Assembly (NCBI GenBank): GCA_017515125.1
Contig: JAFWHP010000024.1
Coordinates: 1-10,482, forward strand
DNA: 10,482 nt
Direction of reading: 5' to 3'
Source: Candidatus Saccharimonadota bacterium
GTDB lineage: Bacteria > Patescibacteriota > Saccharimonadia > Saccharimonadales > Saccharimonadaceae
The position numbers were made by a program, and so were the translations under genes. Shown here one piece after another: positions 55-10,351 of the stretch. The notes under the pieces are model-generated. The model ran no database searches, was not told the DNA's origin, and saw nothing but the letters and a program-made list of their open reading frames with translations. Within the stretch, counting starts at the first letter, position 1; every line of letters begins with the position of its first letter.

Positions 55-1569
55 ATGTGGGCAAAAATAATTAGAAATAATTTAAAATCAAATCTCCGTT
101 TAAATCTAAACTTAAGCTATATATTATATATACTGTCAACCATAACAATAATATATTTAAGCATACTATTTCAACTAGCCAACAACGCTTTTGCTTTAAC
201 TTATAGCAACGAATCCAATATAGACTTTACCATTAACCCTACTATTGGTATCACTCTTTCTTCTTCCAACCTTACTATAGACAATCTCGCTCCTGGTTCT
301 TATGCTGATAGTAACATTATAACCATTAGTGTAAACTCCAATGCCTCTCATGGATACTATCTTTCCGCTACGGCAGGAGATAGTAATACTACTAGCGCTA
401 GTCATAACACCAACCTCACTAATATAGCCAATGATAACTACACTTTCACAAGTCTAACCTCAAACCAAGCAACCCTAAGTAGCTTTAGTGATAATAGTTG
501 GGGATATTCCTATTGTCTTACTACTAATGATTGTACTACCAATAGTAACTGGATTAGCGGCAGTTCCGGTAGTACTACGGCAGGCTATAATGGTTTACCA
601 CTAGACAATGGCGATAACGGTACTACTGGAGTGACCCTAATCAACACTACCAACCCAACTGTCAACCATTCAGCACAATTTAAAATCGGTGCCAAAGCCA
701 GCAACACTCAACCAGCAGGCACTTACACCAACACCATCAACTTCTACGCCATCACCAACCAAACCCCCATCTCATTCAATGATGCTTTTGCTATAGAAGG
801 CAAAGAAAGACTCCTAGGTTATTACAAAATGCAGGATACTACGCCTAGTATCTGCAATGCTGTAACCGAGAACCAAGTAGGTACGCTCATAGACATCAGA
901 GATAATCAAACCTACAAAGTCGCTAAACTAAAAGACGGCAAATGCTGGATGGTAGAAAACCTCAAAATAGGTAAGACCCTCACAGAGTCAGGTGATTCAA
1001 TCACTCTCACTCCAGCTAATTCCAATATCAATGACAACTACACCCTCAATTTCAGCGACATTCCTGCAGACGGTAAGTTCCATGCTTACACCATTGATAA
1101 TATTCCGGATCAAAACAATAGTACCGAATATTACTGCACTGGTAATGATACCACTAATGACTGGGAAAGCTGCTACTATAATTGGTATACAGCTACTGCT
1201 GGTGCCGGTACTACCTCATCCTCTTACGGCACCAACGTAGAAACTAGTATCTGTCCAGCTAGTTGGACTATCCCAACTGTCCAACAATTTTCCGGCCTCC
1301 ACACCCAATATAATTCTCCGGCTTTGATATTAGTAGATGACCCCACTACCACTAAAGAAAACTCTGCCGGCAAAATTCCAGGTTTTCTACTTAGCGGCGA
1401 ATACCGTACTACCGGTGCTTTATATCGCGGTTATTTCGGCGGCTATTGGTCTCGTATTGCATATGACGCTCAGACCGCATTTAACATGGGCGTGTATACT
1501 TTTTCCGCTGACGTTATTGGTCACACGAGCAAGTACTACGGTTTTGCAGTCCGTTGCCTTGCCAAATAA
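55..1569 (+). CDS. Secreted surface protein with C-terminal Fibrobacter succinogenes major paralogous domain
   Basis: This is a 504-residue exported protein. A basic N-terminus (about 1-19) precedes a hydrophobic helix (about 20-41) and a likely signal peptidase site after ANNAFA (residue 47). Residues about 50-235 form an Asn/Ser/Thr-rich beta-sandwich-like region ending in PAGTYTNTINF (220-230), a segment typical of Saccharibacteria surface proteins. Residues about 260-504 match the Fib_succ_major (TIGR02145-type) domain: DIRDNQTYKVAKL (280-292), CWMVENLKIG (297-306), YYNWYTATAG (374-383), ICPASWTIPT (399-408) and C-terminal YGFAVRC (495-501). The eight cysteines after the signal peptide (154, 160, 267, 297, 361, 373, 400, 501) could form disulfides outside the cell. 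No LPxTG motif or C-terminal membrane anchor is seen, so attachment would be through an uncleaved N-terminal helix, or the protein is released. The start is supported by GAGGT at 46-50. The role is probably cell-surface binding or adhesion; the ligand is unknown. The Asn/Thr-rich composition differs sharply from the minus-strand genes. Confidence 0.85.
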   Translation: MWAKIIRNNLKSNLRLNLNLSYILYILSTITIIYLSILFQLANNAFALTYSNESNIDFTINPTIGITLSSSNLTIDNLAPGSYADSNIITISVNSNASHGYYLSATAGDSNTTSASHNTNLTNIANDNYTFTSLTSNQATLSSFSDNSWGYSYCLTTNDCTTNSNWISGSSGSTTAGYNGLPLDNGDNGTTGVTLINTTNPTVNHSAQFKIGAKASNTQPAGTYTNTINFYAITNQTPISFNDAFAIEGKERLLGYYKMQDTTPSICNAVTENQVGTLIDIRDNQTYKVAKLKDGKCWMVENLKIGKTLTESGDSITLTPANSNINDNYTLNFSDIPADGKFHAYTIDNIPDQNNSTEYYCTGNDTTNDWESCYYNWYTATAGAGTTSSSYGTNVETSICPASWTIPTVQQFSGLHTQYNSPALILVDDPTTTKENSAGKIPGFLLSGEYRTTGALYRGYFGGYWSRIAYDAQTAFNMGVYTFSADVIGHTSKYYGFAVRCLAK

Positions 1570-1595
1570 CAAATGAATAAAAACAAGAAACCCTC

Positions 1596-1624
1596 TTGAC
1601 ATCCCCACTCAAATCCTTTATCAT
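1596..1624 (+). promoter_or_regulatory. Strong sigma70-type promoter (TTGACA-17-TATCAT)
   Basis: TTGACA (1596-1601) is a perfect -35 hexamer. A spacer of exactly 17 bases leads to TATCAT (1619-1624), 5 of 6 to consensus. It starts 27 bases after the stop codon of the surface protein gene and points away from it into a stretch with no ORF. The predicted start of transcription is about 1631. It is the best-matching -35 box in the window. Confidence 0.6.
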
Positions 1625-1630
1625 TAAATC

Positions 1631-1705
1631 ATAAGGAGTATAGCACTAGGAACTATACTCGCGGGTTGATATTTCTAACTGGCTTTACTGCCAGTTAGAT
1701 TTTTT
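1631..1705 (+). ncRNA. Candidate small RNA: two hairpins ending in an intrinsic terminator
   Basis: The predicted transcript is about 75 nt. Its first hairpin is a perfect 8-bp stem, GAGTATAG (1636-1643) with CTATACTC (1653-1660), around the loop CACTAGGAA. A linker of 13 nt (GCGGGTTGATATT) follows, then a perfect 10-bp terminator hairpin (1674-1699) with six T residues. A near-consensus promoter lies just upstream, and no protein gene lies between promoter and terminator; the longest TTG-started frame is ten codons. This layout (promoter, structured body, terminator) is that of a stand-alone bacterial sRNA. I do not recognise a family, and no CRISPR repeats or cas genes are in view. It could instead be only the 3' UTR of the surface gene with a fortuitous promoter. 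Confidence 0.5.
1674..1705 (+). terminator. Intrinsic terminator (+ strand)
   Basis: TCTAACTGGC (1674-1683) pairs perfectly with GCCAGTTAGA (1690-1699) across the loop TTTACT, followed by TTTTTT (1700-1705). It would stop both the surface protein mRNA, 104 bases after that stop codon, and the putative small RNA starting near 1631. Confidence 0.9.
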
Positions 1706-2060
1706 ACTTTGGCTCTTGCGCCTGAAAGACAATCTTACGGTAATTACTATCCGCCATAGCGAAAATTTTATACCCATCAAATTCTCCTTTCTAAGCTCCT
1801 AGCCTACCTAGCATAGCCGTTTAATGAAGCTCCACACCCGCACGAATAAATAACGCTCATGCCGTAATGGTAAATTACCATCTTCTCCACTAAACTCCAA
1901 AGCCAACCCACCACTTTTCTACCATATCTTCTACTGTATTGCAACCCCACTAATCCATTAACTAAACCATAACTGTTTCTACCCCCTTATTTTTACGTAA
2001 TTCTTCTTCTGCTAATACTAACCAATACCAATTACAAAACAACCAATAGCAAGAATACTT
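1685..2060 (-). pseudogene. Possible decayed minus-strand coding region (uncertain)
   Basis: The + strand here is strikingly poor in G, so the complement has the G-rich look of the neighbouring minus-strand genes. Read on the minus strand, protein-like pieces appear in different frames separated by stops: SILAIGCFVIGIG (hydrophobic), then LVLAEEELRKNKGVETVMV, and near the end EFDGYKIFAMADSNYRKIV continuing to a TAA at 1704-1706. A 30-codon frame (ATG at 1777, stop at 1685) is preceded by an ideal AAAGGAG (1784-1790). None matches a family I recognise. Either a gene has decayed by frameshifts, or this is ordinary non-coding sequence with skewed composition. Confidence 0.2.
1867..1881. repeat. 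Short perfect palindrome
   Basis: ATGGTAA-a-TTACCAT is a 7-bp perfect inverted repeat around a single central base, lying in the non-coding stretch. It could be a binding site for a dimeric protein, but a palindrome this short may arise by chance. Confidence 0.3.
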
Positions 2061-2084
2061 AACCCCCTCTCCCAACCCGATTGT

Positions 2085-2230
2085 GACGACTTCCGAATCT
2101 CTCCATCCGGAGGAATAAAGCGAACCCGAGCGGGTGCTGACGAGGTGAATTTTGGTAAAATTCGCCGAAGGAAGCTCCGCCCGGCGTGTAGCGGCTTTCG
2201 TCCGACGGAGGGAGAGATGCGGAAGTCGTC
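2085..2230. repeat. 146-base nested imperfect palindrome (MITE-like or structured-RNA element)
   Basis: The outer arms are 2085-2109 and 2206-2230: 25 positions paired with two mismatches (A2096/G2219, A2105/G2210), sharing GACGACTTCCG and ATCTCTCC. Inside and in the same register, AAAGC (2117-2121) pairs with GCTTT (2194-2198), CGGGTG (2131-2136) with CGCCCG (2178-2183, one G-T), and GGTGAATTTT (2144-2153) with AAAATTCGCC (2157-2166, one G-T) around a GGT loop. The whole element therefore folds back on itself. It is richer in G and C than its AT-rich flanks, which suggests an inserted unit. No clear target-site duplication was found. A minus-strand frame of 63 codons across it is an accident of the repeat. 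It may also act as the end of transcription for the minus-strand operon. Confidence 0.7.
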
Positions 2231-2314
2231 AATCCAAACGAAAGAAACATTGTAAAAATTAGCTTGGCGCGAGTGAACTGCGAATAAATTTATTGGTTTG
2301 GAGCTCTTAGTGGT

Positions 2315-3031
2315 CTAAGCCACTTGACTCTGTATCGCACTCGCTTCGCGGAAGCCGTCATAGAAGTTTTCGGAGACTTTTGGATGGCCAATTCTATTTG
2401 CAGCATCAACAATTTCCGACAGATGGTCTGTAATCTTGAATATCCCAGTATCTTTTGCCGAAATTAGTCTGAGGGCTATCATTTTGCCAATCATTCTGTC
2501 AAAACCTTTCCAGTAATCTTCTCCGACTAAGAAAACCGGCATAGTAGGCATTTTCTTTTCCTGCATTAAGCAGAGTATTTCGGAAAGCTCATCCATAGTT
2601 CCGAATCCTCCCGGCATAAATACGAAAACTTTCGCTGACATTGCAAGGGATACCTTCCGCGCGAAGAAGTATTCGAATGTAACGCAATCGGTTAGATACG
2701 GGTTAGGATGTTGCTCATGCATTAATGTGATATTAAGCCCAATTGTTCGCCCTCCAATTTCGTATGCGCCATGCGAAGCCGCCTCCATGATGCCCGGCCC
2801 GCCTCCCGTAATCACCGCGTGCCCATTTTCAGCTAGCATCCGTCCTAGCGAGAAAGCCATTTTGCAGTATTTTGAATCTTGCGGTAGCCTCGCTGAACCA
2901 AAAATCGTTACTCCCTGCGGAAACGTTCGTACAATTTGTAGTCCTTGCCCCAAATCCTTAGCATAAGCGTTTGCTCGTTCCAAATCAGTAATGGACAATT
3001 TCTTCAATATCTCTTCTTCGCTTTTTAACAT
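2315..3031 (-). CDS. LOG-family (TIGR00730-type) nucleotide 5'-monophosphate phosphoribohydrolase
   Basis: This 238-residue Rossmann-fold protein belongs to the lysine decarboxylase-like/LOG family. Characterised members cleave the N-glycosidic bond of nucleoside 5'-monophosphates, releasing base and ribose 5-phosphate (in plants and some bacteria, active cytokinin). Visible motifs are GVTIFGSAR (40-48), GGGPGIMEAA (76-85), the FEYFFARK segment (119-126) and the signature MPGGFGTMDELSE (139-151) with its conserved PGGxGTxxE. The start is supported by AAAGGG in the 36-base gap after the PfkB gene. It is the last gene of the gap operon, where ribose 5-phosphate release would feed RpiB and Rpe. 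Old annotations call this family 'lysine decarboxylase', which is incorrect. The exact substrate cannot be read from sequence. Confidence 0.88.
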   Translation of the reverse strand: MLKSEEEILKKLSITDLERANAYAKDLGQGLQIVRTFPQGVTIFGSARLPQDSKYCKMAFSLGRMLAENGHAVITGGGPGIMEAASHGAYEIGGRTIGLNITLMHEQHPNPYLTDCVTFEYFFARKVSLAMSAKVFVFMPGGFGTMDELSEILCLMQEKKMPTMPVFLVGEDYWKGFDRMIGKMIALRLISAKDTGIFKITDHLSEIVDAANRIGHPKVSENFYDGFREASAIQSQVA

Positions 3032-3067
3032 GATTCCCTTTCTGCTTGCTAAATCTTAAAAATATTA

Positions 3068-4030
3068 TTAAACTTTCTGAATTGGCATCAGGTGCAATTT
3101 TTCGCGACCGCTCAGTATTCCGCGATTTGCTCCAAGCTTTGAAACCACGCCAGTCGAGTTTGCGGAAGCGAAAATCAGTGCTGTGCGAAAAGATTTTCCG
3201 CTCGTTATCGCCGCCAAAAATCCAGACCCAAACGCATCTCCAGCCCCTGTCGCATCCTTCACTTTTACGTCGCCATAGATGCCGAATCGATAAGTTTCTG
3301 CTCCGTTCGTTGCAATTCCGCCCATTGCTCCGTCTGTAATAATCGCAATTTGAATATAATTCGCTAAATGGTATAGTAATTCATTTAAAACTTTTCCCGG
3401 CACTAGACAACTCGCTTCAGCTTTATTGACGTTCAATATATCGACATATTTAAGTAGCTTTGTCAATTCATCAGGATGTTCTAACTCGCGTACGCCCGGA
3501 TTAAACATGATACGCGTTCCTATCGCTTTGGCTTTTTCAAAAAACCTTCGTAATGTATCAAAATCCCCCCGTAAAGTTGTTACATATAACCAGTCTGGCT
3601 GTATCAAGTCTAAATCTGATTCATCAAGATTTCCGAACTGTTCCGAAGCTCCCCGGCAAGTCAAAATCGTCCGCTCCCCAGATTTCGAATCAAGCAGAAT
3701 CACAGAAGTTCCCGTCGCCCGTCGCTCTAAGAACCTGACGTAGCTACTGTCAATTCCCTCCCGATCCATCACTTTGATGATTGCCATTCCTGCTGGATCT
3801 CTTGCAATATTCCCCATGAAAATCGCTTCATGTCCATGCCTAGCAAAGGTAATTGCCGAATTGAGCCCGCCCCCTCCGACTTCGTATGACACTTTGTCAA
3901 TATCCACCTTTGAACCGACCAGTACCTTGCCAAAAATAGCCGCATCTCCAATCGCGGTCGGCACTAAGTCGTCATGATCGATAAGGTAAACATCCTGCAG
4001 GGCCGAACCAAGTGATGCGATTCTTGCCAT
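3068..4030 (-). CDS. PfkB/ribokinase-family carbohydrate or nucleoside kinase
   Basis: This 320-residue protein is an ATP-dependent kinase of the ribokinase superfamily. It shows the N-terminal glycine-rich substrate motif VGGGGLNSA (51-59), NPG (177-179), the NxxE-type motif in LNVNKAEA (199-206), and the C-terminal signature DATGAGDAFGSGF (259-271), where D265 is the expected catalytic base and GAG forms the anion hole. Length is normal for the family. Its ATG (4030) shares one base with the stop codon of the rpe-like gene (TAATG), so the two are translationally coupled. Substrate is not determined by the motifs: ribose, a nucleoside (adenosine/guanosine type) or a fructose phosphate are all possible. 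The neighbours RpiB, Rpe and LOG favour ribose or a nucleoside; that is inference. Confidence 0.88.
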   Translation of the reverse strand: MARIASLGSALQDVYLIDHDDLVPTAIGDAAIFGKVLVGSKVDIDKVSYEVGGGGLNSAITFARHGHEAIFMGNIARDPAGMAIIKVMDREGIDSSYVRFLERRATGTSVILLDSKSGERTILTCRGASEQFGNLDESDLDLIQPDWLYVTTLRGDFDTLRRFFEKAKAIGTRIMFNPGVRELEHPDELTKLLKYVDILNVNKAEASCLVPGKVLNELLYHLANYIQIAIITDGAMGGIATNGAETYRFGIYGDVKVKDATGAGDAFGSGFLAAITSGKSFRTALIFASANSTGVVSKLGANRGILSGREKLHLMPIQKV

Positions 4031-4686
4031 TATAATACTACCCCGTTCTTGTCAATCTCTGCCACTAGTTCTTGAAAGGCCGCCGCAGGATCCGGTGCAC
4101 GCGAAATCGCCGACCCGACGTTAATCACATCTAGCTCAGCATGCGCCAGTGCGCGCACGTTGGACATATTTGCTCCACCGTCCCAGCCAATTTCGAGTTC
4201 GGGCTTCATATTTCGCACTAACGGCACCTTCTCCATTTGCATCAAATCTGCCTGTGACCCCTGGACTCCTAGCTGACCAGCAAAAATCAAAACATGATCA
4301 ACCATATCGATATAATGCTTGACAGCACCCGGATAAGTCGGCGGCAGAAGCGCAAGGCCGGTGCGAATCCCAGCTTTTTTCAGAGTAGTAAAAGTCGGAG
4401 TTAAATCTTCGCTCGCTTCAGCATGCAGTATACAGAGCGAAGGGTTTAGCTTCAAAATCGTTTCTAGATGCGCTGACGGGTTGGTAGCCATCAGGTGCAA
4501 GTCCGCCTTCCAGTTGTTGGGCCACCAGACATTAGTTACGTCGAGCGTCCGAGTTGGAGCAAACACTCCATCCGTCACGTCGATCTGTACGCGCCTCGTA
4601 AAGGCATTAATTTTCTCAACTTGCGAGCGATAATCTTGTTTGTTATCCGTCAATATCGACGGCACGATTGATACGGTTCTAAGCAT
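4030..4686 (-). CDS. rpe: Ribulose-phosphate 3-epimerase-like TIM-barrel protein
   Basis: This 218-residue (beta/alpha)8 protein resembles D-ribulose-5-phosphate 3-epimerase, which interconverts ribulose 5-phosphate and xylulose 5-phosphate. Matching motifs are PSIL (9-12), QIDVTDG (34-40), DLHLM (62-66), LHAEA (87-91), IFAGQLGVQGS (134-144, in place of the usual MSVNPGFGGQ) and IGWDGGANMSN (166-176). The catalytic acids D36 and D169 and metal-binding H64 are present. The His that normally precedes the first acid (H-x-D) is Gln34, so one metal ligand appears changed. The gene overlaps the rpiB-like gene by 8 bases (ATGCTTAG) and is preceded by AAAGGGAAG. It is divergent, so an epimerase acting on a related sugar phosphate is an alternative. 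Confidence 0.8.
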   Translation of the reverse strand: MLRTVSIVPSILTDNKQDYRSQVEKINAFTRRVQIDVTDGVFAPTRTLDVTNVWWPNNWKADLHLMATNPSAHLETILKLNPSLCILHAEASEDLTPTFTTLKKAGIRTGLALLPPTYPGAVKHYIDMVDHVLIFAGQLGVQGSQADLMQMEKVPLVRNMKPELEIGWDGGANMSNVRALAHAELDVINVGSAISRAPDPAAAFQELVAEIDKNGVVL

Positions 4687-5128
4687 AATCTTCCCTTTCG
4701 TCTAATCGATTAATACGCCTTACGCGGCGTTCTAAATTGTCAAATGCCGTCTCCAAGAAAGCCCTGGTTATCTCGGCTGCCTTTTCGTCATCCGTAAAAT
4801 GCGCCGACAGGCATAGCACATTCGCATCATCATGTTCGCGCGCCAACTTCGCTAACTCGGCACTATCGCAGTGCGCTGCCCGGATTCCTTTAAACCGATT
4901 CGCCTGAATAGTCATTCCATGCGCCGAATCACAAATCAGAATCCCGAAACTTCCCGGGTTTTCACGTACTGCCTTTGCTACGGCAATAGCAGAATCATTG
5001 AAGTCGTCGCCACTAGCCTGCTCATACGTACCCATATCGGTCACTTCATGCCCGCATTGCTCTAAAAAAACCATAAGTGCTTGTTTTCTTTCGAAACCTC
5101 TGTAATCTGCCCCGATAAAAATATGCAT
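4679..5128 (-). CDS. rpiB: RpiB/LacAB-family sugar-phosphate isomerase (ribose-5-phosphate isomerase B type)
   Basis: This 149-residue protein matches the RpiB/LacA/LacB family in length and fold. RpiB interconverts ribose 5-phosphate and ribulose 5-phosphate. It has IGADYRGF (5-12), GHEVTDMGTY (26-35), the active-site segment ILICDSAHGMTIQAN (63-77) with Cys66, GIRAAHC (81-87) and AREHDDANVLCL (96-107) with His99. Cys66 and His99 fall at the E. coli RpiB catalytic numbers. Two usually fixed features differ: D-H after the first strand is D8-Y9, and the CGTGIGM motif is CDSAHGM, so the phosphate/anion-binding loop is altered. Its ATG overlaps the gap stop codon by one base (TAATG), with GGAAAGG as ribosome binding site. 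LacA/LacB-like specificity cannot be excluded. Confidence 0.83.
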   Translation of the reverse strand: MHIFIGADYRGFERKQALMVFLEQCGHEVTDMGTYEQASGDDFNDSAIAVAKAVRENPGSFGILICDSAHGMTIQANRFKGIRAAHCDSAELAKLAREHDDANVLCLSAHFTDDEKAAEITRAFLETAFDNLERRVRRINRLDEREDYA

Positions 5129-6132
5129 TATTTTGCCTTTCCGAAATCTACCGCTAGTTCAGCCAAACGGTTCGAATAGCCCCATTCGTTGTCATACCAA
5201 GCAACAACCTTTACCATGTTCCCGCCCACTACATCTATTAATGGCAAATCAACGATACATGAATGTGGATCCCCAATGAAATCTGTCGAGACAAGCTCTT
5301 CGTCTGTTACGCCGATAATACCTTCATAATAAGGCTCTTTCGCCATTGATTTGAATAGTTTGGTTAATTCTTCTTTGCTGGTATCACGCTTCAAAACCGC
5401 CGTAATATCTGAAAGCGAAACTACTGGCGTCGGTACGCGTACGGAAAGCCCATTGAATTTGCCCTGCAAACTCGGTATCGTTAGTGCTGCTGCCTTAGAG
5501 GCTCCTGTTGTTGTCGGTACGATATTCTCCGCGGCACTTCGAGCTTCGCGTAAATCTTTTGCTGGTGCATCTAGGATTCTTTGGGAGCCAGTATAGGAAT
5601 GAACCGTAGTCATCATGGCTTTCTCAATTCCAAAAGCATCCTCAAGGATTTTCATTACTGGGGCAATGCAATTCGTTGTACAAGAAGCATTCGAAATGAT
5701 AGTGTCATTGCTTTCTACTACTTCTTCGTTCACGCCAAGTACTACAGTTTTTGCGCCTTCGCCTTTTGCTGGCGCTGATATTACGACTTTTTTCGCACCT
5801 GCTTTAATATGTGCCTTTGCGTCGGCTGGATTAGTGAAAAGTCCCGTCGATTCAATGACAACATCTACGCCCAACTTGTCCCAGGGTAGCTTAGTGGGGT
5901 CTTTTTCTGCAAAAACTGGTATTTCGCGTGTATTGATGATAAGCGAATTATCGCCGGCCGAAACCTTCTTGTCATAGGTCCCGTAGGTCGAGTCATGCTT
6001 CAAAAGATGCGCCAGTGTCTTCGCATCAGTAATATCATTGATTGCTACAACTTGCGCATCATGGCGTTCGAGTAAAATCTTCAGTGCATTCCTGCCAATT
6101 CTACCGAACCCATTAATTGCTACTTTTACCAT
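5128..6132 (-). CDS. gap: Glyceraldehyde-3-phosphate dehydrogenase (type I)
   Basis: This 334-residue GAPDH catalyses the NAD-dependent oxidation and phosphorylation of glyceraldehyde 3-phosphate to 1,3-bisphosphoglycerate in lower glycolysis. The N-terminal Rossmann motif INGFGRIGR (6-14) is followed by IND (31-33), where Asp33 indicates NAD preference. The catalytic segment SNASCTTNC (147-155) has Cys151, and His178 lies in TTVHSYTG. The phosphate-binding and C-terminal motifs ARSAAENIVPTTTGA (197-211) and WYDNEWGYSNR (312-322) are intact. Length and all key residues are standard. The gene is the first of a five-gene minus-strand operon, with GGAGG (6138-6142) five bases before the ATG and an extended -10 promoter about 30 bases upstream. 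Confidence 0.97.
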   Translation of the reverse strand: MVKVAINGFGRIGRNALKILLERHDAQVVAINDITDAKTLAHLLKHDSTYGTYDKKVSAGDNSLIINTREIPVFAEKDPTKLPWDKLGVDVVIESTGLFTNPADAKAHIKAGAKKVVISAPAKGEGAKTVVLGVNEEVVESNDTIISNASCTTNCIAPVMKILEDAFGIEKAMMTTVHSYTGSQRILDAPAKDLREARSAAENIVPTTTGASKAAALTIPSLQGKFNGLSVRVPTPVVSLSDITAVLKRDTSKEELTKLFKSMAKEPYYEGIIGVTDEELVSTDFIGDPHSCIVDLPLIDVVGGNMVKVVAWYDNEWGYSNRLAELAVDFGKAK

Positions 6133-6137
6133 TTATA

Positions 6138-6173
6138 CCTCCATAATATAATATACTTATGCTCATTATACCA
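6138..6173 (-). promoter_or_regulatory. gap operon promoter (extended -10) and ribosome binding site
   Basis: On the minus strand, TGG directly precedes a perfect TATAAT (6165-6170; TGn at 6171-6173). At 17 bases upstream there is no good -35, so the TGn extension probably compensates. Transcription should start around 6157-6159, giving a leader of about 25 bases that carries GGAGG (6138-6142). It would drive gap, rpiB, rpe, the PfkB gene and the LOG gene. Confidence 0.7.
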
Positions 6174-6209
6174 TATATTTGCAAAGTAGGGCATAAATAA
6201 TCCTCGGTA

Positions 6210-6222
6210 ATTTTGGCAAAAT
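6210..6222. repeat. Short palindrome ATTTTG-g-CAAAAT
   Basis: This is a perfect 6-bp inverted repeat around one base, between the rpsG terminator and the gap promoter. Similar A/T-flanked GG(T/C) hairpin cores occur inside the 146-base palindrome (2148-2162) and, with a different loop, at 10448-10468. It may be a remnant of a dispersed hairpin family or a regulator site upstream of gap. Confidence 0.3.
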
Positions 6223-6234
6223 GCAGGCTATCCT

Positions 6235-6264
6235 AAAAAAGAACGGGACATAAGGCCCGTTCTT
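6235..6264 (-). terminator. Intrinsic terminator of the rpsL-rpsG operon
   Basis: Read on the minus strand, AAGAACGGG (6264-6256) pairs perfectly with CCCGTTCTT (6247-6239) across an 8-base loop, and the second arm runs into a T tract (6240-6235). It begins 34 bases after the rpsG stop codon and separates the ribosomal operon from the gap operon. Confidence 0.88.
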
Positions 6265-6297
6265 CTTCCAAAAATGCCAGTAAAGACACAATAATTT

Positions 6298-6774
6298 TTA
6301 GCGTGCGAAATGCGCAAAAGCCCGGTTCGCTTCTGCCATGCGGTGACAATCTTCTTTCTTCTTGAAAGCGGCACCCTGCGAATTCACAGCATCAATTATC
6401 TCGGCTTCGAGACGCTTAGCATAGGGCATCCCCTTTCGAGCGCGTGCCGACTGCACTAGCCAAGAAAAGGCAAAGTGAAGCTGGCGATGGCCGGCAATTG
6501 GGAATGGAATCTGATAGTTGGCACCGCCAACTCGTCGTGATTTAACCTCGAAATCTGGCGAAACGTTCGCAATCGCCTTTTCGAGTACCTCGACCGGATT
6601 CTCGGACTTCAATTTCTTTGCTGCGCCCTCAATGGCCGAGTAAACTGCACGTTCGGCAACCTGCTTCTTGCCATCAAGCATAGATTTGTTAATTAGGCGC
6701 TGCACCAAGATAGACTGGTACTTACGATCTGGACTAACTTTGCGAACTAGAGATTTAGTAGTTTTACGTGGCAT
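6298..6774 (-). CDS. rpsG: 30S ribosomal protein S7
   Basis: This 158-residue protein binds the 3' major domain of 16S rRNA and starts assembly of the small-subunit head. Visible family motifs are LINKSMLDGKKQVAE (27-41), SRRVGGANYQIPFP (79-92) and the C-terminal KKEDCHRMAEANRAFAHFAR (139-158). Length is normal. The ATG is two bases after the rpsL stop, and its AGGAGG (6785-6790) lies inside the end of rpsL, so translation is coupled. In most bacteria fusA and tuf follow; here a terminator follows instead. In E. coli S7 represses its own operon by binding the S12-S7 junction. The two-base junction here leaves little room for that, so control may lie in the rpsL leader instead. Confidence 0.98.
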   Translation of the reverse strand: MPRKTTKSLVRKVSPDRKYQSILVQRLINKSMLDGKKQVAERAVYSAIEGAAKKLKSENPVEVLEKAIANVSPDFEVKSRRVGGANYQIPFPIAGHRQLHFAFSWLVQSARARKGMPYAKRLEAEIIDAVNSQGAAFKKKEDCHRMAEANRAFAHFAR

Positions 6775-6776
6775 AA

Positions 6777-7190
6777 TTACTTACCCTCCTTCTTCGCACC
6801 GTACTTGGAGCGACCTTGTTTACGACCCTGTACTCCTTGCAAATCAAGCGTGCCGCGCACAATATGGTAACGCACACCAGGAAGATCTGGCACACGACCA
6901 CCGCGCACTAGAACGACAGCATGCTCCTGCAAGTTATGGCCCTCGCCACCAATATATGCCCAAACTTCTTGGCCATTGGTAAGACGAACCCTAGCCACCT
7001 TTCGCATAGCTGAGTTTGGCTTTTTCGGAGTCTTGGTTGTAACTTTAATACATACACCGCGCTTCAATGGTGCTGGTGTTTCCACGCGCCTGGTCTTTAG
7101 AGTATTTACAATAGAGCCAAGAGCCGGAGATTTAGACTTCTTCGCAGCCTTTTTCCGAGGCTTACGAATCAACTGATTAATAGTTGGCAT
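6777..7190 (-). CDS. rpsL: 30S ribosomal protein S12
   Basis: This 137-residue protein is the decoding-centre component that contacts h18, h27 and h44 of 16S rRNA. Conserved motifs are [12 protein letters not shown] (1-12), [14 protein letters not shown] (51-64), [10 protein letters not shown] (81-90), [14 protein letters not shown] (96-109) and [10 protein letters not shown] (122-131). The N-terminal region between the basic tail and the TPKKPNSA loop is about 13 residues longer than in E. coli, as in Bacillus-type S12. Lys56 and Lys57 match E. coli Lys42 and Lys43. The position matching E. coli Lys87/88 in GGRVKDLPG is Pro101, at a known streptomycin-resistance site. GAGG at 7199-7202 is the ribosome binding site. 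The gene lies first in a two-gene operon with rpsG. Confidence 0.98.
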
Positions 7191-7352
7191 TAAAATTTCC
7201 TCATTAATTAATATATATAATATATAGTGAACTATCCTACGCTATATATAGTGTCCAAAGGCTATACTGAACCCACTAAAACACTATATCTAGCGCCCAC
7301 TATTTGTCCGTCCGCGTACAGCAATTGCGTTCGAACTGAAACTCTTTCAAAC
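7191..7352 (-). promoter_or_regulatory. Long structured 5' leader of rpsL-rpsG mRNA
   Basis: The promoter at 7353-7358 lies far from the ATG at 7190, so the mRNA has a leader of roughly 155 bases. It contains a 15-position hairpin with one mismatch (arms 7281-7295 and 7240-7254; 26-base loop). A second copy of the 3' pairing segment follows: the + strand word ATATATAGTG occurs at 7244-7253 and again at 7220-7229. The 5' arm can pair with either copy, and the second lies about 17 bases from the GAGG ribosome binding site (7199-7202). This is the layout of a switchable leader, perhaps for ribosomal-protein autoregulation. The ligand is unknown and the switching is inference. Confidence 0.5.
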
Positions 7353-7361
7353 ATTATACCA
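7353..7361 (-). promoter_or_regulatory. rpsL-rpsG promoter (extended -10)
   Basis: On the minus strand TGG-TATAAT (hexamer 7353-7358, TGn 7359-7361) forms an extended -10. The 17-base-spaced -35 would be TGGAAA, a weak match. A diverged repeat shared with the oxidase promoter region lies 40 bases upstream of the -10 (7399-7425). Confidence 0.65.
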
Positions 7362-7398
7362 CAAACCTTCTAGTTTTTCCAGTACTTTTTGAAGCCGT

Positions 7399-7425
7399 GG
7401 CGTTGTTGTGTAATTCGCCAGCACT
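7399..7425. repeat. Diverged 27-base repeat, copy 1 (see 10409-10435)
   Basis: This copy agrees with 10409-10435 at 21 of 27 positions, same orientation, sharing GGC-TTGTTG and TAATTCG in register. Five of the six differences are transitions. It lies between the tig stop and the rpsL promoter. GGC(T/C)TTGTTG-type ends resemble terminal inverted repeats of IS5-family elements as I remember them, so it may be a relic of such an end; a shared upstream regulatory site is the alternative. Confidence 0.4.
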
Positions 7426-7433
7426 ACTAACAA

Positions 7434-8714
7434 TTACTTGCTGTTCTCTTTGACTAAATAATCTAGCGTAGCCTCAATCACTAAACGATTATGAATATCG
7501 GTTTTAACGTTAGGATCTTTTAGTTGCTTAATTGCCTCCGGGGACTTCTTGTAGACGTCTCTCAACTCCGCGATTTTCGCAGCAACGAGTTCATCTGGAA
7601 CAGTAATATTTTCAGAAATAGCAACATTTTGCAAAGCAAGCGAACCTTTCACGCGTTCCTCGGCGACCTTTCTTGCCTCTTTCTCCCAATTCTCCAGTGT
7701 TTCATTGTTTCTTTCTAGGAACTCCTCAAAACTCAAACCCTGCGAAGAAGCATTCCTAGTCATATCATCCCGGATTATCCGCATCTGATCGTCAACTAAA
7801 ATTTCTGGGGTCGGAATAGTGGATTTTTTGACTAATTCCCGAATCAAATCATCCTTAAATTTCTCCTCGATTTGATGATTCTTTTGTGCCTCTAGGTTTT
7901 TGCGGATATCTTCTTTTAGTTCGTCAACACTCTTGAACGCACCACACTTAGCCGCCAAATCATCATTGACTTCCGGTTTTTTGATTTCATTGACCTGTTT
8001 TAAGAGTACCTCAAATACCGTCTTGGCGCCGGCTAAATCTTTTACTCCATAATCTTTCGGGAATGTCAAATCAAGGTTGAATTTATCTCCTGATTCGTGC
8101 CCGACAATTCCATCCTCAAACCCTGGAATAAAAGTCTTAGAGCCAAGTGTCAATTTGTAATCTTTTGCAGAGCCGCCCCGAAAAGCCTCGCCGTCTTTTT
8201 TGCCAACGAAATCGATAATTACTTCATCTCCTATCTCGGCTGCTTTCCTGGCTACTTTCTTCTCCGCAAAAGACGTACGGATATTTTCTAATATTTCTTC
8301 AATCTCTTTATCCGATACTTTTACTTCTGGTTTCTTTACGCCTAGTTTTTTGTAGTCGCCCAGCTTAACTTCTGGAACAATGTCGGCGGTTGCTGTATAC
8401 TCGGCCACCTCGTCCGGAACATATTTTGTTACATTAATGCTCGGTAGTACCAACGGAGATTTTTCCGTTTCTCGAAAAGCCGGGATTACCGTCGACCGCA
8501 CCGCATGGTCGATAGTCTCGGCATTCAAATCGTTTTCCGGTATAAACTTCTTGGCAACCTCGATAGGAACTTTCCCCTTTCGAAATCCTTCGACCGAAAC
8601 CCCTTTAGCAAGCTTCGCTAAGGCCTCTTTCTTTGCTGTTTTTAAATCCTCTGCCTCAAGCGTAACAGTCAATTCTACTCTAGAGTCAGAAATCTTCTTT
8701 AATTTTGTCTTCAT
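7434..8714 (-). CDS. tig: Trigger factor (ribosome-associated chaperone and peptidyl-prolyl isomerase)
   Basis: This 426-residue protein binds the ribosome near the exit tunnel and shields nascent chains. The N-terminal ribosome-binding domain (about 1-115) carries the signature GFRKGKVP (43-50). An FKBP-type isomerase domain follows (about 162-240: GDEVIIDFVGKKDG, then LGSKTFIPGFEDGIVGHE, then FPKDYG). The C-terminal helical domain (about 245-426), highly charged, forms the chaperone cradle. Length is typical. AGGAG (8720-8724) lies five bases before the ATG, and an extended -10 promoter sits in the 50-base gap after the upstream oxidase gene, so it is probably a single-gene unit. No T-tract terminator was found between its stop and the rpsL promoter, so some read-through into rpsL is possible. 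Confidence 0.96.
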   Translation of the reverse strand: MKTKLKKISDSRVELTVTLEAEDLKTAKKEALAKLAKGVSVEGFRKGKVPIEVAKKFIPENDLNAETIDHAVRSTVIPAFRETEKSPLVLPSINVTKYVPDEVAEYTATADIVPEVKLGDYKKLGVKKPEVKVSDKEIEEILENIRTSFAEKKVARKAAEIGDEVIIDFVGKKDGEAFRGGSAKDYKLTLGSKTFIPGFEDGIVGHESGDKFNLDLTFPKDYGVKDLAGAKTVFEVLLKQVNEIKKPEVNDDLAAKCGAFKSVDELKEDIRKNLEAQKNHQIEEKFKDDLIRELVKKSTIPTPEILVDDQMRIIRDDMTRNASSQGLSFEEFLERNNETLENWEKEARKVAEERVKGSLALQNVAISENITVPDELVAAKIAELRDVYKKSPEAIKQLKDPNVKTDIHNRLVIEATLDYLVKENSK

Positions 8715-8719
8715 AAAAA

Positions 8720-8747
8720 CTCCTATATATTAATGATAATTATAGCA
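8720..8747 (-). promoter_or_regulatory. tig promoter (extended -10) and ribosome binding site
   Basis: On the minus strand TGC-TATAAT (hexamer 8739-8744, TGn 8745-8747) is followed by a leader of about 20 bases with AGGAG (8720-8724). No good -35 is visible at 17 bases. It lies in the 50-base gap between the oxidase stop (8765) and the tig start (8714). Confidence 0.7.
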
Positions 8748-8764
8748 CGTTTTATTTATAATTC

Positions 8765-10351
8765 CTACCCTACAAGTCCCGATATTTCACTATCTCGAAA
8801 ATGAGTCAGCGTAAAACGTGAATCTGCCCCTAATTTAATATCAGGATTCAGGATGTTATTTGGATCAAAAATCTTTTTAATTTCACTATATAAATTTTTG
8901 GTCGAATCAAGCATGTCATTATTGGTAGCTGCAGCCTTAACCCGTCCTTCTGGTGTTCCACCAGCTAAAGTTCCGCCCTGCCTCTTAATAATATAAGCAC
9001 CTGCTCTGAGGAAAGTGGCTATTTTCTTGTTGGTATCTTTGTCTTTAAAATCAAACAACGGCCTTAAGCTATATATTCCATTCGCATACGAGCCAAACAA
9101 AGCCAAATCCAAATCAAGTTTTTCCCCAAGTACTTTTATGTCATTGGTAAAGTTTACTAGATTAACCGAGGGGATGTAAAAATCGGTCAGAATCGGCACT
9201 CGTTCGCCATTTTTTACGTTGTTCAGATAATTTATTGTGGCATTTTCGAATTCGTTAAGCGCCAATTGATTTTCGGGCTTGTCGTAAATCATTTTTACAC
9301 TTCTGGGCATTTCGTTATGTAATTTTTCAAGTCTTCGCGTAATCATATTTTTCCGCTCATCAAACACCATATAGACCGCGAAACCATCCTCGGTTTTTTT
9401 GAATACACCGTCCAAATGTTTTCCAGAGCCTCGAACGGCCTGGATGATTTTTAAATCGCATAAATTCATCTCGCGCGGCCTTAAAGCCAAAGCTTCATCC
9501 ATATATTTAATAGCAGTACTGAGGTCTTTGAACGTCGCAACCGTACGTACGACATTTTCGCGTATCGGCACCGCCCTCAAAATCACTTCCGAGATGACAC
9601 CCAATGTCCCCTGCGACCCAAAGAATAGCGGCATCAAATCGACCGTTTCCCGCTTTGGCACTTTGGCGATTCCAGGATAGCCAGACAAACCAGCATTATC
9701 AAAATCAAACTCGCGCAAAAACTTATCTTCTTCCTTTAAAAGCTTTGCGATTTTGCGGTAAATCGAGCCTTCAAAAGTTTTTTCGGCAGCGCGTTTCGCC
9801 AGTGCATACTTGCGAAGTCTATTGGTCTGTAAGCAATCGCCATTGGACAAGATCACTTCGATTCGCTCAACGTAGTTTTGGATGCCACCATATTTGCCAT
9901 AATATGAATCACAAAGGCAATTCGCAATCAACCCGCCAATCGTTTCCGCATCTCTTCCACCTATCGGAACGGTCAAGCCGGAAACAGACAATGCAGTATT
10001 AAGCTCCTTTAGCGTGATACCCGCCTGAACGCGCACCAATCTGTCCCTCGAGTCAATTTCCAACATTCTATTTAGTTTTTCAGTAGATATTACAAGTCCC
10101 GTAGTTAAATCAGCTCCGCCTTCATCAAGCCCCGAGCCTCTTACCGTTACCGAGGCCGGAATTTCCCTTAGTGCTATTTGATTAAAAAACTTCAACAGTT
10201 TTTGAATATCCCCAGTCGATTCTGGAAAAGCGACGAATTTTGGTTTAAGCTTAATAATTGAACGATCAACTGAATATTTTTCCAGAATTTCCGGATTATC
10301 AAAAACATTACCAATTATTAACTGATTAAGGTATTTCGTGATTTTTCCCAT
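8765..10351 (-). CDS. FAD-binding oxidase/dehydrogenase, GlcD / D-lactate dehydrogenase-like
   Basis: This 528-residue protein has an N-terminal FAD_binding_4 (PCMH) domain and an FAD-oxidase C-terminal domain, as in glycolate oxidase GlcD and D-lactate dehydrogenases. FAD-site motifs are VTVRGSGLDEGGAD (68-81), RVQAGITLKELN (107-118), GLTVPIGGRDAETIGGLIAN (125-144) and FGSQGTLGVISEVILRAVP (244-262). The C-terminal IFDPNNILNPDIK (495-507) matches the usual DPxxxxNPGK ending. Family members oxidise 2-hydroxy acids and pass electrons to quinone or ferredoxin partners. The expected C-terminal H-G active-site motif (GGSxxGEHGxG) is replaced by GGTLAGGTPEGRVKA (459-473), so the substrate may be different. 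No membrane segment or Fe-S motif is seen. The start codon is only about 10 bases from the -10 box, with no ribosome binding site. Confidence 0.85.
   Translation of the reverse strand: MGKITKYLNQLIIGNVFDNPEILEKYSVDRSIIKLKPKFVAFPESTGDIQKLLKFFNQIALREIPASVTVRGSGLDEGGADLTTGLVISTEKLNRMLEIDSRDRLVRVQAGITLKELNTALSVSGLTVPIGGRDAETIGGLIANCLCDSYYGKYGGIQNYVERIEVILSNGDCLQTNRLRKYALAKRAAEKTFEGSIYRKIAKLLKEEDKFLREFDFDNAGLSGYPGIAKVPKRETVDLMPLFFGSQGTLGVISEVILRAVPIRENVVRTVATFKDLSTAIKYMDEALALRPREMNLCDLKIIQAVRGSGKHLDGVFKKTEDGFAVYMVFDERKNMITRRLEKLHNEMPRSVKMIYDKPENQLALNEFENATINYLNNVKNGERVPILTDFYIPSVNLVNFTNDIKVLGEKLDLDLALFGSYANGIYSLRPLFDFKDKDTNKKIATFLRAGAYIIKRQGGTLAGGTPEGRVKAAATNNDMLDSTKNLYSEIKKIFDPNNILNPDIKLGADSRFTLTHFRDSEISGLVG

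Follow-up and report, generated by a model that had tools for sequence, protein, structure and literature searches.

A candidate type I toxin-antitoxin family with a pseudoknot in the toxin leader in Saccharibacteria

We propose that a short DNA module of a Candidatus Saccharimonadota bacterium represents a new family of type I toxin-antitoxin systems, in which a small RNA read from one strand serves as the antisense antitoxin to a peptide mRNA read from the other. Judged by comparison of sequences we consider this reading probable, and the convergent gene pair itself very likely. The module lies in a window of 10,482 nucleotides, by which we mean the whole stretch analysed (positions 1 to 10,482 of contig JAFWHP010000024.1, assembly GCA_017515125.1), and its features are collected in Table 1. 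In the model the minus strand would give an mRNA some 280 nt long, from around 1909 to around 1630, consisting of a pseudoknotted leader, a Shine-Dalgarno (SD) sequence and a basic peptide of 30 codons, the toxin, while the plus strand would give an antisense RNA of about 75 nt, the antitoxin. On the mRNA side the antisense RNA would cover the 3′ hairpin, the linker and the final codons, its own terminator lying within the toxin gene. It may pair with the 3′ half of the mRNA, where the linker and the CUAG-bearing loop of hairpin 1 are the probable starting points, and the resulting long duplex would be either silenced or cleaved by RNase III. Should the labile antisense RNA be lost, a growth-inhibiting peptide would be freed. 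An RNase III gene is present in 20 of the 20 genomes searched.

The small RNA had been put forward from the DNA alone, and the promoter described in that original prediction, TTGACA followed after a 17-base spacer by TATCAT, is present in full and scores 11 of 12, one of two sites in the window to score so high. The two perfect hairpins, of 8 and 10 bp, and the T6 tract are likewise present, and the 75-mer folds at -25.6 kcal/mol (z = -4.62), none of 200 shuffles folding equally well. The -35 box had been thought special, but a perfect TTGACA is by itself unremarkable, for the two strands of the window contain 12 where 4.8 would be expected, and it is the combination of elements and their conservation that count. 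The statement that the stretch holds no ORF of note is wrong for the minus strand, where a 30-codon ORF with an SD ends within hairpin 2. The RNA was also taken to stand alone; its own promoter and its conservation are well supported, but it lies antisense to the peptide mRNA. Homologues in which only the terminator is conserved, named beforehand as evidence against a small RNA, were not met with, and the conserved unit exceeds the predicted 1596-1705, since the match to one copy in the same genome (C24) covers 442 window bases, 1594 to 2035, and so runs well beyond the terminator.

Table 1. Features of the proposed module in the window, with the evidence for each
Feature	Coordinates	Strand	Basis or remark
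Small-RNA -35 box TTGACA	1596..1601	+	motif score; promoter-like at homologous loci
Small-RNA -10 box TATCAT	1619..1624	+	motif score; promoter-like at homologous loci
Small RNA of about 75 nt, proposed antisense antitoxin	1631..1705	+	predicted; start inferred from promoter spacing
Hairpin 1, 8 bp, CUAG in loop	1636..1660	-	mRNA 3′ hairpin; also 5′ hairpin of the small RNA
Linker between hairpins	1661..1673	-	CAACCC on the mRNA strand, pairs with GGGUUG of the mRNA 5′ end
Hairpin 2 (10 bp, 1674-1699) and T6 (1700-1705)	1674..1705	+	small-RNA terminator; inside 3′ end of the peptide ORF
Small ORF, 30 codons and TAA, proposed toxin peptide, subfamily A	1685..1777	-	ORF reading, conservation, coding selection
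Shine-Dalgarno region AGAAAGGAG	1784..1792	-	sequence reading
Leader helix P2, 3′ arm	1793..1799	-	covariation
Contact K: leader segment UGCUAGG, able to pair with the hairpin 1 loop in the same mRNA	1807..1813	-	0 of 5000 permutations
Leader helix P1, 3′ arm, within P2 loop (pseudoknot)	1819..1825	-	covariation, arm permutation
Leader helix P2, 5′ arm	1826..1832	-	covariation, arm permutation
Leader hairpin P3, arms 1862-1856 and 1846-1840	1840..1862	-	covariation
Leader helix P1, 5′ arm	1889..1895	-	covariation, arm permutation
Inferred mRNA 5′ end GGGUUGG	1903..1909	-	permutation test, promoter position
Candidate promoter of the mRNA (TTGCAA-17-TAGAAA), with a weak score of 8 of 12 in the window	1916..1944	-	promoter score

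The peptide gene and the small RNA are convergent, and the last codons of the ORF share their DNA with the small-RNA terminator, the T6 tract of the window corresponding to codons Lys25-Lys26. The ORF, its SD and a conserved leader emerged from a minus-strand alignment of five copies in the same genome. In all 34 loci read an ORF begins where the leader match stops, give or take a few bases; the loci comprise these five copies and 29 from other genomes, one per genome, drawn from 72 matches to a covariance model of the leader that includes the start codon and nothing of the ORF; a copy at a contig end (C42) and the remaining matches were left out. Of these ORFs 33 are complete and one (L069) runs off its contig. 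The 33 complete peptides have 22-31 residues, a net charge of +3 to +10 (mean +6.7) and hydrophobic first 13 residues, and 31 of them, all except L073 and L095, have a basic tail of net charge at least +3. Two main kinds can be told apart, A with the pattern MxIxFSLWRIxITVxLSFRR...KK and B with the pattern MTIQINLLCIIxPxRK...KK, for which pN/pS over codons 2-14 is 0.46 (15 loci) and 0.33 (19 loci), with values of 0.86-2.55 in shifted frames. An intact ORF of like build, as judged by eye, recurs in 18 of 20 held-out weaker matches (20 of the 21 weakest of the order sample, used in neither of our models), once with a GTG start and in both copies from another genus; in the other two the frame is broken (L144) or there is an internal deletion (L149). 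By its pattern of selection the ORF is coding.

An A-run of at least five begins inside the ORF in 30 of 33 loci, so that toxin tail and antitoxin terminator are largely written on the same bases. An apparent excess of AAA lysine codons at this run was set aside, the run having been chosen for its A's. The hydrophobic part, about 11 residues by eye, is short for a membrane helix; AlphaFold2 returns a single helix with a mean pLDDT of 76 and a pTM of 0.30, to which we give little weight, and a Pfam/NCBIfam scan of the 33 peptides found nothing convincing, the two weak Pfam matches (E 0.056 and 0.098) both falling in subfamily B.

Ahead of the SD stands a leader of about 130 nt which, on the evidence of covariation, is a structured RNA. 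In a MAFFT alignment of 34 leaders 93.7% of the cells of helices P1, P3 and P2 are paired, double-change cells number 111 against 38.7 in shuffles (0 of 500), and pairing falls to 29-44% when the partner is slid along the alignment. P2, just before the SD, is paired in 99.6% of cells and has six of its seven pairs changed on both sides, P3 is paired in 86.1% with five of seven so changed, and P1 varies little, with one such pair. As the 3′ arm of P1 sits in the loop of P2, the two helices together make a pseudoknot.

The same comparisons indicate two places at which the 5′ and 3′ regions of the mRNA are complementary to each other, the one joining the 5′ end to the linker and the other, contact K, joining the leader to the loop of hairpin 1. 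Arms taken from the same locus outdo arms permuted among 33 loci, with 0 of 5000 permutations as good for P1, P2 and contact K alike and 37 of 5000 for the 5′-3′ pairing (L069 left out, L073 kept with a wrongly picked hairpin). The loci share ancestry, and it was on this very set of sequences that the helices were first noticed, which makes the p-values of our comparisons too small. The 5′-3′ pairing is weak, absent or made of G-U pairs only in C38, C24, L078, L088 and L092. Folding of the minus-strand RNA gives z = -4.74 for the window and -6.25 for a second copy (C11), and both folds pair GGGUUG of the 5′ end with CAACCC of the 3′ linker. Nested folding, which takes in neither the pseudoknot nor contact K, gives no masking of the SD by the 3′ end over 32 loci (unpaired 0.32 with it and 0.32 without), while removal of the 3′ end frees the mRNA 5′ end in the same loci (unpaired 0.11 to 0.37). 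The linker of the small RNA is complementary to the 3′ part of the peptide mRNA and shares GGGUUG with the mRNA 5′ end; the small RNA carries both of the leader segments that would grip the mRNA 3′ end, GGGUUG and CUAGG or CUAAG.

Each strand, as far as base-pair usage reveals it, carries a hairpin selected on that strand. Read in the mRNA sense, hairpin 1 contains 249 Watson-Crick, 29 G-U and 1 A-C pairs, and hairpin 2 contains 306 Watson-Crick, 1 G-U and 16 A-C pairs, the last being G-U in the small-RNA sense (30 of 34 loci, leaving out C38, L069, L091 and L095; Fisher 1.9e-10 by cells and 9e-9 by loci). Such an asymmetry is what one would expect if the small RNA terminated at hairpin 2 and the mRNA ended in hairpin 1. 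Of 33 loci, 23 have a best small-RNA promoter of at least 10 out of 12, a score that 2.0% of shuffles attain, and 30 have one of at least 9, as do 19% of shuffles; together with the selection of hairpin 2 on the small-RNA strand this sustains the part of the original prediction that gave the RNA its own promoter. The mRNA promoter reaches at least 9 of 12 in only 14 of 34 loci (2.4% of shuffles), and in the window the small-RNA promoter outscores it by 11 to 8 of 12.

The genome from which the window comes (520,584 bases in 56 contigs, 69% complete) holds two near copies, C38 and C24, of 80% and 77% identity, and a fragment, C42, all reached by DNA similarity, and two diverged copies, C14 and C11, met while reading the neighbourhoods of surface genes. 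Among these paralogues hairpin 2 and the linker are 58-62% identical, the leader 76-93%, the ORF 91-94% and hairpin 1 88-97%, with the promoter stretch ranging from 45% to 95%; the hairpins are still complementary in the window, C24, C14 and C11 and imperfect in C38. Divergence of hairpin 2 and the linker, with the hairpins still able to pair, suggests a small RNA matched to one mRNA in every copy, which the available part of PMC6733600 reports for IsoA3, and it would keep each antitoxin specific to its partner.

Beyond this genome the module is patchy, with one to six copies per matching genome. A DNA search of 60 genomes with the small-RNA stretch gave long copies only in the own genome and short matches in the other 59 (best E 2.2e-4), and relatives were reached by the covariance model of the opposite strand, not by this search. 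Model R1, built from five leaders, matched 41 of 118 genomes of the genus at E ≤0.01 (72 matches, six in the own genome). Model R2, built from 34 leaders, matched 67 of 174 at E ≤1e-4, the own genome included, leaving 107 without a match at that level, where strict filters lose weak matches, some genomes are incomplete and covariance-model E-values are rough. In the order sample R2 matched 38 of 392 genomes, again counting the own, all of the same genus except one (G300) from another genus of the family, the leader being found, weakly, in 1 of 155 other genera sampled; in the phylum sample it matched three of 379, all of the own genus and the own genome among them. An exact 22-base leader pattern occurs in 25 stretches of a species-genome collection, all titled Candidatus Saccharibacteria or Candidatus Nanosyncoccus, and 10 of the 25 titles name goat, sheep or water buffalo.

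In the window the small-RNA element lies directly behind a surface gene of the Fib_succ_major type (55-1569; Pfam PF09603, E 8.8e-7, below the curated cut-off), and the minus strand of 2315-10351 carries genes for a LOG-type lysine decarboxylase, a pfkB kinase, ribulose-phosphate epimerase, RpiB, GAPDH, trigger factor and an FAD oxidase, with two ORFs that by eye resemble ribosomal proteins S7 and S12. The surface gene had been suggested as the target, and a trans-acting small RNA regulating that protein or its family, the minus-strand ORF being incidental, would suit the position of the module beside surface-type (FISUMP) genes at five places in its own genome (window, C38, C24, C14 and C11, the C11 gene being truncated at the edge of its contig and classed by its opening codons). 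At 25 named loci, though, the nearest ORFs are varied and by eye often encode housekeeping proteins, and a surface-type gene is adjacent at five (L127, L128, L137, L139 and L140, L128 and L137 being from one genome) and missing at 20, in a tally of nearest ORFs judged by eye in which five of the 25 loci are visible from one side only. Control of the surface protein is not supported, as a conserved linkage is missing; the minus-strand ORF is moreover conserved as coding, the conservation of the linker is explained by pairing inside the peptide mRNA, and a structured leader stands on the opposite strand, all of which leaves a trans-acting regulator highly improbable. Repetition of the module in the genome, and the fact that two neighbouring genes are targets of a diversity-generating retroelement (DGR), could point instead to a repeat or mobile element at the DNA level (a MITE, a transposon end or a DGR homing hairpin) whose hairpins act as DNA. 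We find this extremely unlikely, as strand-defined G-U pairs, covariation of a pseudoknot and coding selection are signals of RNA and protein, the genomic contexts are varied, and one exact leader pattern has no match in viral contigs; involvement of the DGR was rejected, its template lying elsewhere (C53) and the window surface gene showing no match to it.

An antisense pair might alternatively control a useful peptide, such as a membrane signal, an antimicrobial or another small protein, and a cationic peptide with a short hydrophobic stretch that is under purifying selection would serve such a role; the patchy multicopy spread, the varied sites, the pairing arm that diverges between paralogues and the antisense layout nevertheless resemble type I families as the available parts of PMC6733600 and PMC6563280 describe them, and we judge this explanation unlikely. 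We consider it very unlikely that the leader is a sensor controlling the peptide gene, a riboswitch or thermosensor, and that the antisense RNA arises only as a by-product of the terminator. A compact pseudoknot directly upstream of the SD would be apt for sensing, but the small-RNA promoter is conserved and selection has acted on hairpin 2 in the sense of the small RNA. A more speculative thought, to which we give a small chance, is that the antisense RNA mimics the leader and takes the mRNA 3′ end, thereby opening a closed mRNA and changing or perhaps raising peptide output rather than only destroying the mRNA, in which case the basic peptide might act on the bacterium that carries the Saccharibacterium. 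The toxin-antitoxin reading, which we prefer, agrees with the general features of type I systems in the short coded peptide, its hydrophobic part (here short) and its charged C-terminus. The separate antisense RNA of such systems is here a prediction from the overlapping layout, a promoter and strand-specific selection.

Several other elements of this genome were observed along the way. The DGR on C53 (L056) has a reverse transcriptase (PF00078) at about 1302-2654(+) and an Asn-rich template repeat at about 2907-3110(-), and in the variable regions at the 3′ ends of the C38 and C24 surface genes most of the mismatches to the template fall on its adenines (18 of 23 and 20 of 29). Upstream of three surface-type genes stand structured leaders, L061 1788-1937(+), L057 1193-1332(+) and L022 4717-4866(-), with fold z of -7.1, -7.8 and -4.5, each with a terminator-like GGTGCC...TTTTT behind it, for which an upstream GGCACC-like arm is a possible pairing partner; they have no match in Rfam and are candidates for attenuators or leader RNAs. 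A MITE-like repeat at window 2084-2231, with 38-nt inverted ends that are 84% complementary, has copies 81-99% alike at C29:7846-8041, C32:158-475, C38:1873-2045 and C52:4736-4875, the C38 copy lying between the surface gene and the small-RNA promoter. Long inverted repeats, seen by eye directly behind other surface-type genes (L057 about 2970-3130, L058 about 2600-2730(-), L059 about 2430-2570(-)), are possibly strong terminators or cruciform elements.

In Rfam the window has no match at the gathering score, a loose threshold yielding two weak ones (E 0.83 and 4.3), and seven loci of the genome yield only tRNAs. Among 5.39 million open-licence papers, a set that leaves out most subscription papers, none joins Saccharibacteria with 'type I toxin-antitoxin', 'candidate phyla radiation' with 'type I toxin-antitoxin', or Patescibacteria with 'toxin-antitoxin' and 'antisense RNA', and the sole match there for 'Nanosynbacter' with 'antisense RNA' concerns Porphyromonas in its available text. 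HigA-HigB, AbiEii-AbiEi and the toxin YafQ are named in the available section on cell defence of PMC13059738, a paper that mentions Saccharibacteria. If our reading is true, RNA-controlled toxins would extend to ultra-small epibionts with minimal genomes, for which they would be new, and the candidate family would be set apart by a pseudoknotted toxin leader and by an antitoxin terminator written inside the toxin gene. It would also provide short ORFs and small RNAs to seek in transcriptomes and co-cultures.

Among known type I systems, txpA/RatA has its overlap at the 3′ end. The available parts of the reports cited here describe for yonT/SR6 a convergent antisense RNA that overlaps the toxin gene at its 3′ end (PMC5848175), for the modules of C. 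difficile a convergent antisense RNA over the toxin gene with toxins listed at 34-59 aa, and for txpA-RatA a duplex acted on by RNase III (both PMC6563280). The predicted antisense RNA of the present module is likewise convergent and over the toxin gene; no sequence relation to these systems was found. In aapA/IsoA of Epsilonproteobacteria, as far as the same part of PMC6733600 goes, the aapA3 ORF is 90 nt, the antisense duplex spans about 80 bp, the mRNA is closed by a 5′-3′ long-distance interaction, and several chromosomal copies have module-specific antitoxins. The Saccharibacterial module shares with it the short ORF, a predicted antisense RNA, the multiple chromosomal copies and, with the support and the five exceptions given above, the 5′-3′ long-distance pairing. 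It differs in that its antisense RNA would cover the 3′ ends of both ORF and mRNA, and in that the partners of the mRNA 3′ end are the leader and the very 5′ end, with no family match; unlike in aapA3, a lock on translation by the 3′ end is not supported by nested folding. With Fst/par_pAD1, as presented in the available part of PMC7472228, the module has in common convergent promoters, a small antisense RNA, here predicted, over the end of the toxin mRNA, a sequestered mRNA 5′ end and a YUNR motif in a hairpin loop, which 32 of 33 loci here carry on one strand or the other against a background of 0.49 (two of the hairpins were positioned manually). In contrast to the Fst/Ldr systems we find no direct-repeat families (DRa/DRb) of at least 12 within window 1500-2400 and, in the peptides, no PXXXG motif by eye and no family profile match, and where those systems have one bidirectional terminator the present module has two separate ones, hairpins 1 and 2 each being selected on one strand.
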